A DNA stretch of 47,607 nt from an uncultured Candidatus Saccharibacteria bacterium (GTDB lineage: Bacteria > Patescibacteriota > Saccharimonadia > Saccharimonadales > Saccharimonadaceae): assembly GCA_947304135.1 (NCBI GenBank), contig CAMYZZ010000004.1, positions 1 to 47,607 on the forward strand, in the 5' to 3' direction. Each line of letters opens with the position of its first letter. The first letter of the stretch is position 1. Positions 10,343 to 31,701 of this stretch are shown here, in pieces. The position numbers and the translations under genes are program-made. Under the pieces are notes generated by a model. It was not told the DNA's origin and did no database searches. It saw nothing but the letters and a program-made list of their open reading frames with translations.

Positions 10343-10348
10343 ATTTTT

Positions 10349-10380
10349 ATTATACTCTAAAACCTTAAAGGTTTCTTAAA
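10349..10380 (-). promoter_or_regulatory. CiaR-like operator and promoter of the two-component operon
   Basis: On the minus strand TTTAAG (10380-10375), five bases AAACC, TTTAAG (10369-10364), nine bases, then TATAAT (10354-10349) and six bases to the ATG. The 11-bp repeat period is one helical turn, as expected for an OmpR-type dimer. No good -35 is present where the operator sits. Confidence 0.75.
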
Positions 10381-10389
10381 ATGGCTGTT

Positions 10390-11739
10390 TTAGAGTTTTG
10401 GTGCTTTTTCGGCGCTGATAGTGGAGGCGGTCATGGTGAGAGCGGTTTCTATTGGGAGGAGCTTGCGATTTGCGAGTGTGATGTTCCCCATTGGGCGGCC
10501 AAAGACTGCTTTGCCGATTATCTTGCCATTGCCATCGCGAAGGACGGCGACAGCTTCGATGTGGTGACGTTGTAGAAACCTGCTTTCTGAGTCTGTGAGA
10601 GCGAGCCAGATGCCGCGGGCTGGAGCACGGAGACTTTCTATTTTGGAGATTTCGGCGCTGGATAACTTTGTGTGTTCTGCGTCATAAAATTTCCCGTCAA
10701 TAACTAGACCGAAGTTTTGGAAGTGGAGATGGTCGCCTAGGAATCCTGCAAGCTCGTTGTAATCCAGATACTCACTAGAAAGGGCGCTGAGTTTTTTGAC
10801 AATATAAACAATATCTACGTCTTGGACGGAAGCAAGCGAGCGGACATAATCACTAATTTCGCTGAGGACTGGAAATAGCAGTAGAGCGATAATGATAACA
10901 ATAGAAACAAGGATGACAACTTCTGTAGATGGATTTGGAACTTTGAACAGCGCGATAAAGACGACAAAGAAAATGGCAAGATAGAGAATGGCCATAAAGG
11001 ACATGATGATGATATGTGAGAGGGTTTTGAGCCAGCGACCAGAAAGGTTGATGAGGTGATAGCGGATGATGGCGTAATAATGGAAAACCCAGGCGATACA
11101 CATGGCGAGTGGGCCAATCCAGATGGTGCTATATTGACCAAAAACTGGAAGGATAAGGTTGAAGACTAATGCGATAACACCAGTGATAGTGAAGCCGATA
11201 AAGACGATAGTGTTGGCGCGCTTGATGCTTTTTGCGGTGGCTTTTTTGGCGTTGATAAGCAGGCCGAGCATATATAGTGCAACTGTGACACAGAAATAAA
11301 TACCAAATAGAAGGTAGAAGAGGTTTTGGTGGAGGTGGACAATGTTGCCGGAAATACTATTTAGCTCTATGGTGGAATATAGAATGTGTGGGTCATAAAC
11401 AATAAAGCCGATGAGGGTGCCGCCAAGGATTGCAAAAATGGCCATGGCGATTTTGCCGAGGAGATATTTGTGGCAGGTATAGGACATGAGGCCCCAGCAC
11501 ATGACAATGGCGGCGATATAGAATGTCAAAACGACAACGCTTGTAAGCTCAATGCTAGTAGTTTCTGAAAGGGCCAAGAAAACGCCGATTGGCGCGGCCC
11601 AAAAAAGGCAGGCGATGGTAGTAAAGAAGAAAATGAAAGCCTGTGCGCGCTCGCCTTTTCTAGCTCCGAGCAAGACAGAAAAGCCCGAAAGCAAAGTTAA
11701 AAGTGAAACAGCAGTAAGCAAAATATTGATTAGTTGCAC
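10390..11739 (-). CDS. multi-pass membrane protein with 7TM-type sensor region and degenerate GAF-like C-terminus
   Basis: 449 residues. About nine hydrophobic segments span residues 1-300. The first seven resemble the N-terminal 7TM receptor module found in bacterial sensor kinases (MQLINILLTAVSLLTLLSG onward; HYYAIIRYHL after the last of these). A soluble C-terminal region (about 310-449) has a GAF-like pattern (FQNFGLVIDGKFYDAE, AVLRDGNGKIIGKAVFGRP) but no HisKA, HATPase or GGDEF. The start is GTG with AAGGAGG 4 nt upstream; the overlapping ATG is out of frame. It lies 47 bp upstream of the response regulator on the same strand. It may be a sensory partner of that system, but this is inferred only from position. 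Confidence 0.75.
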   Translation of the reverse strand: MQLINILLTAVSLLTLLSGFSVLLGARKGERAQAFIFFFTTIACLFWAAPIGVFLALSETTSIELTSVVVLTFYIAAIVMCWGLMSYTCHKYLLGKIAMAIFAILGGTLIGFIVYDPHILYSTIELNSISGNIVHLHQNLFYLLFGIYFCVTVALYMLGLLINAKKATAKSIKRANTIVFIGFTITGVIALVFNLILPVFGQYSTIWIGPLAMCIAWVFHYYAIIRYHLINLSGRWLKTLSHIIIMSFMAILYLAIFFVVFIALFKVPNPSTEVVILVSIVIIIALLLFPVLSEISDYVRSLASVQDVDIVYIVKKLSALSSEYLDYNELAGFLGDHLHFQNFGLVIDGKFYDAEHTKLSSAEISKIESLRAPARGIWLALTDSESRFLQRHHIEAVAVLRDGNGKIIGKAVFGRPMGNITLANRKLLPIETALTMTASTISAEKAPKL

Positions 11740-11842: not shown

Positions 11843-12907
11843 TTATTGTTTACGACGATCAAAGCAAGTGTTGCTCTTGTAGAACGCTGCTTTGTCTTGG
11901 TACATTTTGATCTCAGCGGCCTTTTGCAAGTCGGCCATGTTGAGATGTGGTTTTTTCTTGGTTTCGCAACCAGTTGCTATGTGGTAGCCACATTCTTCGA
12001 TTTCGTTTATCATTTCTTCGATACTTTCTTTGATAATTTCATCAGAACAGTCCGAAACAAAGATAACGAATTCGTCGCCACCGATACGATAGGCTAAATC
12101 TTCGCCAAAGTATTTTAAAACTTTTTCGGCTACAGTCTTGAGCATTTTATCACCAGCTGTATGATTAACTGTGTCGTTGATAGTCTTGAGACCATTAACG
12201 TCGACATATATACAACTGAGACTCTTTTTGCACTGCTTTGGAAGATTGCAAATATCGTACTCGTAAGCATTTCTGCTGTTCATGCCGGTGAGCGCGTCTG
12301 TGCGGCTAAGTTCTTGAAGTTTGCTTTCCGCAATGTAAGATTTGATCTTGTTGCGGGTAAGCGCAACCCCACAGTTCATACCGAGAAGCCCAAATACTAT
12401 AGTATCAACAATGTCATTGTTTAAGATTGCTCCTGTTTTGTTGGCAAAACAAAGAATCATAAAAATGACGCAGTGTAACACGGTAATGGCAATCATCTGG
12501 TATGGTTGCACTATGAATAGTGCTGGCAAAAGAACTAACATTACCATAAAGGTAACGGTTTTTTCGTCTGGATCTGTAACAGTTCCAATTAGAATGCCAT
12601 AAGTGAAGAATACAACGAAGCAAGTATGAACTAATGACATAATCAATCTTGGATATTTCTTTGCAAAGAAGAGCGAAAGAAATAAACAAAGTAGTGAGAT
12701 GATTGAGCCAATACCGTAAACGGTGTGGTTCATACCTATCCCTTCAATAAAGTAGGATAGTACAAACATGAGCGTGATTAGGAAAGACGCTAATCCGGAG
12801 ATTGCGTTTACTAATACTCTGTTTGTTTCGTTGATTTTTCCCTGTATTCTTTCATAATCAGAAGCTGTTGCTCCTGCGTAGAAGAATATGTTTTTGATTT
12901 TTTCCAT
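11843..12907 (-). CDS. membrane-bound GGDEF diguanylate cyclase
   Basis: 354 residues from ATG 12907, chosen because AGGAGGGG lies about 8 nt upstream. Six or so membrane segments (about 25-185) precede a GGDEF domain (about 200-350) with SRTDALTGMNSRNAY, the intact active-site RIGGDEF, and the tail motif AEIKMYQDKAAFYK. The inhibitory I-site Arg (RxxD) is replaced by Phe, so product feedback is unlikely. It should make cyclic di-GMP at the membrane. No EAL or PilZ partner is in the window. The protein reads like Firmicutes (clostridial) GGDEF proteins, and a second-messenger cyclase is unusual in so small a genome, so horizontal acquisition is possible. Confidence 0.9.
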   Translation of the reverse strand: MEKIKNIFFYAGATASDYERIQGKINETNRVLVNAISGLASFLITLMFVLSYFIEGIGMNHTVYGIGSIISLLCLFLSLFFAKKYPRLIMSLVHTCFVVFFTYGILIGTVTDPDEKTVTFMVMLVLLPALFIVQPYQMIAITVLHCVIFMILCFANKTGAILNNDIVDTIVFGLLGMNCGVALTRNKIKSYIAESKLQELSRTDALTGMNSRNAYEYDICNLPKQCKKSLSCIYVDVNGLKTINDTVNHTAGDKMLKTVAEKVLKYFGEDLAYRIGGDEFVIFVSDCSDEIIKESIEEMINEIEECGYHIATGCETKKKPHLNMADLQKAAEIKMYQDKAAFYKSNTCFDRRKQ

Positions 12908-13001
12908 GATAGATCCCCTCCTATTTTCTGGAAAAAATTGAATTTGCAATATTTTAATGTACGGTTAAACATATTGTCTAACTGTACTTAATTATAGCAC
13001 A
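12908..13001 (-). promoter_or_regulatory. promoter and about 75-nt leader of the GGDEF gene
   Basis: Extended -10 TGTGCTATAAT (TATAAT at 12996-12991), then a leader holding an imperfect hairpin, GTAC-A-GTTA pairing with TAAC-C-GTAC (about 12958-12986), and AGGAGGGG before the ATG. The leader is long for this genome. No match to the cyclic di-GMP riboswitch core was recognised. Confidence 0.5.
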
Positions 13002-28320: not shown

Positions 28321-28343
28321 AGCGCCCCTCGGGGCGCTTTTTT
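28321..28343. terminator. bidirectional terminator
   Basis: GCGCCCC/GGGGCGC stem with T-tract on the plus strand and A-tract upstream serving the minus strand. It is shared by the zinc-finger protein gene and htrA, overlapping the htrA stop. Confidence 0.85.
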
Positions 28344-29532
28344 ATTTGGCGTTTAGTGTTATGCTTATTTCTTTTTCTTTATATGTATTTCTACTTGGAT
28401 ATTTAACTTTCACTGCTACTTTGTCTCCACTCTTTTTCTTATTTAAAACTTTTTTAATGGTTTCTAGTGATGTGACTTTGTTCCCATCAATTTCCGTTAT
28501 GATGTTCCCAATTTCTAGCTCCGATTTTTCTGCGTTACCATCGGATGTCATTGCTGAGATATAGAAACCTTCTGGGAGTTTATAGTTCTTGATACTTCCC
28601 GCGTTTGTCATATAGCCTTCAACTCCTAGTGTCAGCTCAGTATCGTTTTTGCCATCTATTAAGTCTTTTATAATATCTTTTACATTTGAGATTGGGATTG
28701 CGAATCCCATACCCTCAATACTGGCAGTGGTACCTGATACATTTGAAGAATACTTCGCAGAGTTTATGCCGATAACTTCACCCTTACTATTTAGCAATGC
28801 ACCACCACTGTTCCCTCCGTTGATGGCGGCGTCGGTTTGTATCATATCTTGCGTCGACTCGTCCGTGGTAACTTCCCTATCTAGTGCGCTAATGACGCCT
28901 GTTGTTACTGATTGGCCATACCCAAGTGCATTGCCGATTGCGATGACGCCACTTCCGACTTTTAGTGAATCGCTGTCACCGGTGGTTGCGATTTTAATCT
29001 TTTTCAGTGTTTCTCCATCTAGGCTTTCTTTTTTAATTGCAACCACTGCAATATCTTTTCTTTCGGAGATTCCCTTTACGGTAGCGTCATAGCTTTTGTC
29101 GTCAATGAATTTGACGGATAGTTCGCTCGCATCCTCAACGACATGATAGTTCGTTAAGATAAGGATTTCGCCATCGTTTTCCGAGATGATAACGCCTGAG
29201 CCTGCGCCTTCGGTCGTGTAACTTCTACTACTGCCATAAAAGGATGGTCCAAATATGCCCGAGCTAATGACTGTTTTGCTGGTTATTGCAACGATTGACG
29301 GCATGACCTCTTCAACTACTTCCGAGACATCAGTAATATATATGCCATCGGATTTGACGGTTAGTGTGCCGGTGTGTTGTAATTCTATGTTTTCGGTTTG
29401 TGAATTTTGATTATTAGATATGATTAACCAGCAAGAAATGCCTGCAATTATGAGTAGGAGCGCAGAACAAATAGAGCTGATTATTATTCTGGTTTTCTTT
29501 GTTTTCTTGATTTTCTTTTGCTTCTTTGTCAT
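28342..29532 (-). CDS. htrA: HtrA/DegP-like membrane-anchored serine protease
   Basis: 396 residues. Very basic N-terminus, one membrane anchor (about 15-38), trypsin-like domain with His130 (TNYHVV), Asp160 (RKDIAVVAI) and Ser242 (GGNSGGAL), then a PDZ domain (about 300-396: LGVEGYMTNAG, GFYISAMTSDGNAEKSELEIGNII). It degrades or refolds damaged proteins in the envelope. The ATG is 7 nt from the -10 TAAACT (leaderless), and an exact TTTAAG-N5-TTTAAG repeat lies 10 bp upstream of the -10. In streptococci this is the CiaR operator of htrA. Control by the two-component system at 8.7-10.3 kb is therefore predicted. Confidence 0.96.
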   Translation of the reverse strand: MTKKQKKIKKTKKTRIIISSICSALLLIIAGISCWLIISNNQNSQTENIELQHTGTLTVKSDGIYITDVSEVVEEVMPSIVAITSKTVISSGIFGPSFYGSSRSYTTEGAGSGVIISENDGEILILTNYHVVEDASELSVKFIDDKSYDATVKGISERKDIAVVAIKKESLDGETLKKIKIATTGDSDSLKVGSGVIAIGNALGYGQSVTTGVISALDREVTTDESTQDMIQTDAAINGGNSGGALLNSKGEVIGINSAKYSSNVSGTTASIEGMGFAIPISNVKDIIKDLIDGKNDTELTLGVEGYMTNAGSIKNYKLPEGFYISAMTSDGNAEKSELEIGNIITEIDGNKVTSLETIKKVLNKKKSGDKVAVKVKYPSRNTYKEKEISITLNAK

Positions 29533-29539
29533 TCTTTAC

Positions 29540-29572
29540 AGTTTATTCTGGAAAGCTTAAAAGAAGCTTAAA
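29540..29572 (-). promoter_or_regulatory. CiaR-like operator and promoter of htrA
   Basis: TTTAAG (29572-29567), CTTCT, TTTAAG (29561-29556), ten bases, TAAACT (29545-29540), then seven bases to the ATG. It is identical in repeat sequence and nearly identical in spacing to the site before the response-regulator gene. Confidence 0.75.
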
Positions 29573-29586
29573 AAGTTACTTGAGGC

Positions 29587-31701
29587 CTAAATAATAACGT
29601 CGGTTTTTTCAATATCTTTTGAGATGTTGTGTTTTAACTCAATGATTGGACGACGAATGACCAAGCCTAGTAGCAGCGGAATGATTGTATGGCAAAGCAG
29701 TAGTAGAAGTGCGATGGTATAGGTGGAGCCATAGAACCCACCAATAGTTTCACGAACCGCAGTCATGGATGGGTAAAACGGCATAAATGGCTGTAACCTT
29801 TGGAAGAAGCTTGGAAGTAATTCAATAGGGAAAGTTCCACCGGAACCGGCAACTTGGGCGACCATAATGACAACTGCAACAGCTTCTCCGATTTTGCCAA
29901 ATGAAATGGCAAGGGAGTAAATAATTAGCATGAAAACAAGACTTGAGAGCATGATAGTAAATAAGAACAGTGGCATATTTAGGATTTGGACGCCAAGTAC
30001 AATGTCACCAAGGCCAATGACTAGACCCTGGCAAACGGCGATTGAAGCAAAAAGTAGAAATCTACCAAAGTAGGCTTGGTATGGTTTGATTCTGCTTTCG
30101 TCATCTTCAATGTCGGTTTTGAGAATAGCAACAAGTAATGTGCAGCCGACCCAGGTGGCAAGAATGGTGTAGAATGGCGCCATTTTTGAGCCGTAGTGGT
30201 CAATCTTATAGAGTTCGGTTTTTTCCGTAGCGATCGGCTCAGAAATAAATTTGGCAATATCTTCTGGAGTGTTTTGGAGTAAGTTAACAATTTTCAGAAA
30301 TAGATCGCTTTCGGTCGCGCCGCCGATGGTAGTGGCGATTTTGCCAAGGTCGTTTTCTAGATCGGCCAATAGCGTGTCGATATTTGCATTCATACTGCTC
30401 ATACTATTTAAAGCGTCAATGGTGTTTCCAAGTGCAATATCGCTTTTTGTGAATGCGCTATCAACATAAGACAATGAGCCGATAACGCTAGAAATAGCAG
30501 ATGAGGCATGGTCAATGGCCTTTTTGACTGTTGGAGCGGTAATATTTTGATAATGCGTATTCGCATCATTAATACTAGAATGTAGTTCATAAGCTTTGGT
30601 TTTGGCTTTGTCGAGAATCGGAGTATTGCCTTCTGCGACGGACTGGAGCAATGCCCTTAGCTCAAGATTTTTTTGGATGTTATTAGTGAGTTTATCTTGC
30701 AAGTCTGAAAGCATATTGGCGCCAGCAAGATTTTGGAGCGAGACGATAACTTCTTGCTCTTTAGATAAGATTGTGTTTAGAGCATCAATTAGGGCTATTG
30801 CTTTTTCCGCTTTTTCACGAGCATGGGTATCATTTATATCAATTGAGTTAACTTCATTTTCAATAGTGCTACTAACTTTTTCGGCAGCGTTAAATATTGT
30901 AGTGATATTATCATTTATTCTGGAGTTGAGGTTATTTAGCGAACTGGTTTGACGCTGGACTTCTTGGAGGTTGCCGGCGGTATTTATCGTATCAATGTTT
31001 GTTGGTAGTAGATTCTTGACTGCGGAGAGGGCGCTAGCGGTTGAGCTAGATGCGGCAGAGATAGTATTAAGGGTGGCGCGAAGTTTTTCGATTCCCTGTT
31101 TTGCTTCGCTAAGTCTCATTGTTACCTTGGTAATAGTGGCAGTGCCTTTTTCCTCAATATTTAGATCTTCGGCTTTGTCAGCTGCCTTATAGACTGCGGC
31201 ATTTACGATGGCTTGGTCAAGCGTTGTTTCTAAAGTGCCAACAGCCTTGTTCGTAATGATTGGCGCAATGGGATTTTTCTTGTCATTAACAATAAAATCA
31301 AAAGTTGGTCTAGATATCTCGGTACCGTCAAATATGGTTGTGATTTTATTGCTGAAGTTTTCTGGAATAAGGATTGCGCCATAGTATTCACCGCTTTCAA
31401 CTTTTTTGCGTGCATCATCTTCGTCTGTAAATACCCACTTCATGGCGCTATTGCTTTTTAATTTTTCGGTTAACGAATCGCCAATGTTAATATTTTCGCG
31501 TAGGAGATCAACGCCTTCATCTTTATTAACAACGGCGATTGGAATATTGCCGGTTTTATCATATGGATCCCAGTTTGAATCAATATTTAGCCAAGCGTAA
31601 ATTCCGGGAATAAAAATCATGCCAATTAAAATGACAATTGCCATTTTACTTTTTTTGATGCGCATAAGATCGCGCTTAAAAACTTTAAATATTTCCTTCA
31701 T
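29587..31701 (-). CDS. YhgE/Pip-family membrane protein (ABC-2-like)
   Basis: 704 residues. One N-terminal membrane helix (about 20-38) after KEIFKVFKRDLMRIKKSK, then a 470-residue extracytoplasmic region, partly coiled coil (about 170-450), and five to six C-terminal helices (about 510-690) with GSGGTFPIELLPSFFQ. This is the layout of YhgE/Pip proteins, related to EsaA of type VIIb secretion and the lactococcal phage infection protein. The N-terminal motif IAVVNKDEGV is typical. No other type VII genes are in the window. The spacing to the tRNA-Tyr upstream is 34 nt and no Shine-Dalgarno site is seen. Confidence 0.88.
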   Translation of the reverse strand: MKEIFKVFKRDLMRIKKSKMAIVILIGMIFIPGIYAWLNIDSNWDPYDKTGNIPIAVVNKDEGVDLLRENINIGDSLTEKLKSNSAMKWVFTDEDDARKKVESGEYYGAILIPENFSNKITTIFDGTEISRPTFDFIVNDKKNPIAPIITNKAVGTLETTLDQAIVNAAVYKAADKAEDLNIEEKGTATITKVTMRLSEAKQGIEKLRATLNTISAASSSTASALSAVKNLLPTNIDTINTAGNLQEVQRQTSSLNNLNSRINDNITTIFNAAEKVSSTIENEVNSIDINDTHAREKAEKAIALIDALNTILSKEQEVIVSLQNLAGANMLSDLQDKLTNNIQKNLELRALLQSVAEGNTPILDKAKTKAYELHSSINDANTHYQNITAPTVKKAIDHASSAISSVIGSLSYVDSAFTKSDIALGNTIDALNSMSSMNANIDTLLADLENDLGKIATTIGGATESDLFLKIVNLLQNTPEDIAKFISEPIATEKTELYKIDHYGSKMAPFYTILATWVGCTLLVAILKTDIEDDESRIKPYQAYFGRFLLFASIAVCQGLVIGLGDIVLGVQILNMPLFLFTIMLSSLVFMLIIYSLAISFGKIGEAVAVVIMVAQVAGSGGTFPIELLPSFFQRLQPFMPFYPSMTAVRETIGGFYGSTYTIALLLLLCHTIIPLLLGLVIRRPIIELKHNISKDIEKTDVII

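Follow-up and report, generated by a model that had tools for sequence, protein, structure and literature searches.

The two-component locus and its promoter

The DNA analysed here (the window, 47,607 nucleotides) comes from an uncultured Candidatus Saccharibacteria bacterium and carries a two-component system on its minus strand. The response regulator (RR, P0001; 9680..10342, minus strand) joins a receiver domain (D51) to a winged helix, with PF00072 and PF00486 both above cut-off in a Pfam profile search, which is the receiver plus Trans_reg_C architecture of the OmpR/PhoB family. Its recognition helix reads YVEVYISYLRKKL. The gene of the sensor histidine kinase (HK, P0002; 8724..9695, minus strand), with Pfam HisKA and HATPase_c domains, overlaps the RR gene by 16 nt. 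The RR is the sole PF00486 protein of the genome, so the likely owner of an OmpR-type operator is unambiguous. Its closest named homologues (L031-L055; 62-83% identity) all belong to Candidatus Saccharibacteria.

The operator box (10364..10380, minus strand) lies upstream of the RR gene, in a 47-nt intergenic gap whose flanking genes share a strand. Read from 10380 to 10364 on the minus strand, the sequence TTTAAGAAACCTTTAAG is an exact TTTAAG-AAACC-TTTAAG, that is, a TTTAAG-N5-TTTAAG direct repeat with an 11-bp period. A perfect TATAAT (10349..10354, minus strand), assigned as the -10 element from its sequence and from the spacing in orthologues, follows after 9 nt and stands 6 nt before the ATG (10342). 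The initial annotation had described an exact repeat of 11-bp period 9 bp before the -10 of the RR gene, and a rereading of the sequence gives the same arrangement. OmpR/PhoB operators typically consist of head-to-tail half-sites that repeat every 10-11 bp close to the -35 position, and the box has this form, with its 11-bp period and its place 9-10 nt before the -10. Further upstream, the gene of a 449-aa, apparently multi-spanning protein without a Pfam match (10390-11739, minus strand) ends 10 nt before the box; a GGDEF (diguanylate cyclase) protein is encoded at 11843-12949 (minus strand) of this very small genome.

The exact box is rare. It occurs twice in the window, at the RR and htrA promoters, where dinucleotide shuffling leads one to expect 0.02 copies (none of 100 shuffled sequences has two or more). 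The entire 711-kb genome (97% complete) holds no further exact copy; it was scored by pattern searches with a reversed-pattern control that returned none. The earlier reading of a single further exact copy in the 47.6 kb, upstream of htrA, is thus correct (29572-29556, minus strand), and it extends to the whole genome. Relaxed matching is another matter: two mismatches give 7 matches in the window vs 11.8 expected, which is no excess over chance, and one mismatch gives 14 sites in the whole genome vs 12 for the reversed control, which is background level. Because relaxed matches occur at chance level, only exact or near-exact copies in a proper promoter position are informative, and relaxed counts were not taken as evidence by themselves.

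A conserved box that covaries with the recognition helix

The box is kept at most orthologous promoters, as the initial annotation had anticipated for relatives. It is present with at most two mismatches at 19 of 26 RR promoters (25 orthologous loci and the window), usually just 5' of a TATAAT-like element and mostly at a spacing of exactly 10 nt. The RR orthologues of family genomes show the same conservation and placement upstream of the RR gene; in the upstream regions of some orthologues (L051, L054) no box was found. Two layouts alternate among the orthologues, with the box either about 22 nt from the ATG or about 40-44 nt from it with a purine-rich ribosome site. In the 22-nt layout only 6-7 nt separate the end of the -10 from the ATG, as is seen at the RR gene of the window (10343-10354), at htrA (29533-29545) and at about half of the RR orthologues. 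With the -10 this close to the ATG, such transcripts are predicted to be leaderless. The remaining half or so of the orthologues have a leader of about 20-30 nt and a purine-rich ribosome site.

The core of the recognition helix, VEVYxSYLRKKL, is nearly invariant in the closest RR orthologues. Two related species have changed helices, VESYMSRIRKLL and VEAYMSRIRRLL (VESY/VEAY...SRIR; G195/L198 and G163/L201), and at their own RR promoters the box is altered as well, to TTTCAG-N5-TTTTAG. TTTCAG- or TTCTCAG-type repeats occupy the corresponding position at some more distantly related Saccharibacteria RRs (L206, L211). Among the sequence data, the covariation of helix and box in the two related species speaks most strongly for the RR reading the box. 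Very probably, then, the box is the binding site of the adjacent RR, kept in most relatives.

The box at the htrA promoter

The second exact box (29556..29572, minus strand; TTTAAGCTTCTTTTAAG at 29572-29556) lies 23 nt upstream of the htrA start codon, in a 54-nt gap between same-strand genes. It is followed after 10 nt by a weak -10, TAAACT (4/6; 29540..29545, minus strand), 7 nt before the ATG. The gene (P0003; 28342..29532, minus strand) encodes an HtrA/DegP-type serine protease with one trypsin and one PDZ domain, as judged from Pfam, NCBIfam TIGR02037 and PDB relatives.

Five other family genomes (G018, G029, G119, G129, G166) likewise have an exact box before htrA. For these five, a null model that assigns each exact site to one of 700 promoters at random yields about 2e-8, a value that is optimistic owing to the relatedness of the genomes. 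Boxes with one or two mismatches precede htrA at five further loci, at 22-27 nt from the ATG in four of them (L157, L159, L169, L180) and at 50 nt in the fifth (L174). Among genomes with the closest RR orthologues, 16 of the 16 checked have an htrA gene without a box, and in most of these htrA lies closely behind a gene for a membrane protein of about 265-290 aa. The HtrA of the window is at most about 42% identical to the HtrAs of its own genus and about 40% identical to those of all groups tried; we place no trust in its very long branch in the tree. Its gene adjoins an upstream YhgE/Pip-type (ABC-2 permease) gene, in a context that differs from that in the genus (28342-31701), and the protein may be a displaced or acquired copy.

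On these sequence comparisons, the htrA link is real here and recurrent in the family across distant genera, and it is not stable; in the window genome it may be recent. The proposal of conserved targets therefore stands in part: the htrA box recurs in more distant genera, but it is gone from the 16 genomes with the closest RR orthologues.

The VTC operon and other candidate regulon members

The genome of the window has 14 sites that differ from the box at no more than one position; 5 of them have a perfect TATAAT 7-16 nt downstream, vs 0 of 12 control sites (Fisher p ~0.03, again optimistic because the genomes are related); the background chance of a TATAAT at this distance is about 0.7% per site. 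The five TATAAT-backed sites precede the RR gene; a VTC-domain gene with a membrane-protein gene behind it, the latter DUF4956-like by eye; a gene for a DUF3048 protein; one for a HAD/phosphomannomutase-like protein; and one for a 75-aa membrane protein together with the gene that follows it. The htrA box is backed only by the weaker TAAACT.

The VTC-domain operon is a better conserved second target than htrA and, being outside the window, was invisible to the initial annotation. Exact boxes stand at the VTC genes of three genomes, G126 (VTC 77% identical), G062 and G012. Across the genus, the box at the VTC promoter shows 0-2 mismatches in 9 of the 11 genomes that carry the RR, whereas in 4 of 4 genomes without it there are 3-5 mismatches; a genome was scored as lacking the RR when nothing in it strongly matched the RR of the window, and in G126 a contig end cuts the RR. 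The two RR-bearing exceptions, whose VTC promoters have no TTTAAG box, are exactly the helix-shifted genomes G195 and G163. In five genus members (G062, G175, G181, G089, G116; L249, L252, L254, L256, L263) the VTC gene sits close to the RR gene in divergent orientation, and the two promoters point away from each other.

Exact boxes are also found upstream of an FtsX-type ABC permease gene (L007, in G069) and of a gene in G163 (L022) whose product has a similar start, MFKNMLKRSW, and runs into ABC ATPase-like sequence. These ABC-type genes are possible further members of the regulon. One genome, G134, holds 42 exact boxes, and we rejected these as a large regulon: most lie in tandem arrays, many followed by GGTTTTGTTCGGTTTTAC, with no clear promoter. 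The arrays have an 11-bp period, extend over several contigs (L023, L125-L153) and resemble a dispersed repeat element rather than promoters; they were excluded from the counts.

A proposed mechanism of autoregulation

Our main reading, to which we give a probability of roughly 0.85, is that the box serves the adjacent RR-HK system as its autoregulatory operator, and that the RR activates its own promoter and a very small regulon in response to envelope or surface stress. Two phosphorylated RR protomers would bind head-to-tail on the 11-bp direct repeat. With transcription starting at the ATG, the box would cover about -38 to -22, that is, the place of the -35, 9-10 nt before the -10, from where the RR would most likely recruit RNA polymerase (class II activation, positive feedback). 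Besides the RR operon, the predicted regulon comprises htrA and the VTC-domain operon, to which a few other promoters can probably be added. The signal is most likely envelope or surface stress, a role suggested by the htrA target and by analogy with CpxRA, CssRS, MprAB and CiaRH. CpxRA, CssRS and MprAB are envelope-stress systems in which an OmpR-family RR controls an HtrA-type protease and its own operon. The system described here shares this regulator family with them and would share this pair of targets, but its operator sequence differs from theirs and no specific sequence kinship was found.

The box could also be real and serve negative autoregulation, with the RR repressing from a site so near the -10. 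OmpR-type regulators can repress, and pneumococcal CiaR, which activates most of its targets, represses manLMN (PMC8317062). We consider repression improbable here, since the box replaces the -35 and keeps an almost constant distance of 10 nt to the -10, which is the layout of CiaR-activated promoters.

Relationship to CiaRH and other known systems

Activation by the adjacent RR leaves the question of where the system comes from, and the initial annotation had proposed a CiaRH-like regulator. We compared the RR with a sequence that we take to be that of S. pneumoniae CiaR, to which it is about 37% identical, less than to many other RRs. The helix of that sequence agrees with the published CiaR recognition helix, VVEVYVSKVRKKL (PMC3091779). 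A comparison with an Enterococcus CiaR-like RR (38% identity) had the same outcome. In the RR tree, the Saccharibacteria RRs form a clade of their own, joined next by RRs of Clostridiales, Erysipelotrichaceae and Ktedonobacter and apart from the CiaR pair, with CiaR on its own long branch.

A true CiaRH, whether an ortholog or a transfer from a streptococcus or a relative of one, would have inherited operator and htrA target together. The resemblance is considerable: the half-site and the 5-bp spacer are those of CiaR, the last half-site stands about 10 nt before the -10, much as in the streptococcal work, where TATAAT is set at a distance of ten from the last TTTAAG (PMC3091779), and the own operon and htrA are targeted as in S. 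pneumoniae (PMC8317062). The comparison of recognition helices, which the initial annotation had proposed, gives 9 of 13 identical residues between YVEVYISYLRKKL and VVEVYVSKVRKKL, so that the two are similar, but 4 of 13 differ. Common descent as CiaRH is nevertheless very unlikely, given the low identity, the separate clade and an htrA target that is unstable among close relatives. The targets also differ: CiaR-dependent small RNAs are the main targets of CiaRH, whereas both exact sites here precede protein genes, further targets such as the VTC operon are protein genes as well, and no small-RNA target is among the exact sites. The sensor kinase here is, unlike that of CiaRH, short (323 aa). 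What remains of the earlier proposal is a likeness in half-site, 11-bp period, -10 distance and helix, and not membership of CiaRH; as far as sequence can tell, the operator is CiaR-like and the promoter is laid out as a CiaR promoter, but the system itself is not CiaR.

A second regulator reads similar half-sites. The enterobacterial PmrA box consists of CTTAAG and NTTAAT, head-to-tail with a 5-bp spacer (PMC3973317), so a TTTAAG-type operator word is not unique to CiaR. The present system resembles PmrA/BasR in its head-to-tail (C/N)TTAA(G/T) half-sites, 5-bp spacer and OmpR-family winged helix, but has another helix and other targets; the RR scores 144 bits against the PmrA equivalog model NF007928 (NCBIfam), far under the 330-bit cut-off, and falls outside PmrA/BasR.

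That the repeats are chance AT-rich promoter sequence would fit the background level of relaxed matches and the loss of the htrA box in the nearest relatives checked, but a chance origin of the RR-promoter box is strongly disfavoured by the rarity of exact sites (2 in 711 kb, control 0), the conservation of the box at fixed spacing before orthologous RR genes, the exact htrA boxes in five other family genomes and the covariation of the box with RR presence and helix.

Implications for regulation in Saccharibacteria

Little has been described of how Saccharibacteria and other ultra-small episymbionts control transcription, and a search of the paper collection used here for two-component regulation in Saccharibacteria/CPR found nothing relevant. 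A common operator word and a common htrA target do not prove shared ancestry with CiaR, and this calls for caution elsewhere. The result is a small, testable regulon of a lone OmpR-type system, for which operator, promoter geometry and targets (the HtrA protease and the VTC-domain operon) are predicted, and the natural helix/operator variants can be used for specificity tests. More tentatively, and at somewhat less than even odds, the operator word, promoter geometry and htrA target of CiaRH may have been arrived at from a separate RR lineage by the lone OmpR-type system of this ultra-small symbiont. The regulon would then be undergoing visible rewiring: some lineages would have taken on htrA as a target, the VTC operon would stay under control wherever the RR persists, the operator would decay once the RR is gone, and in two species helix and operator would have shifted together.
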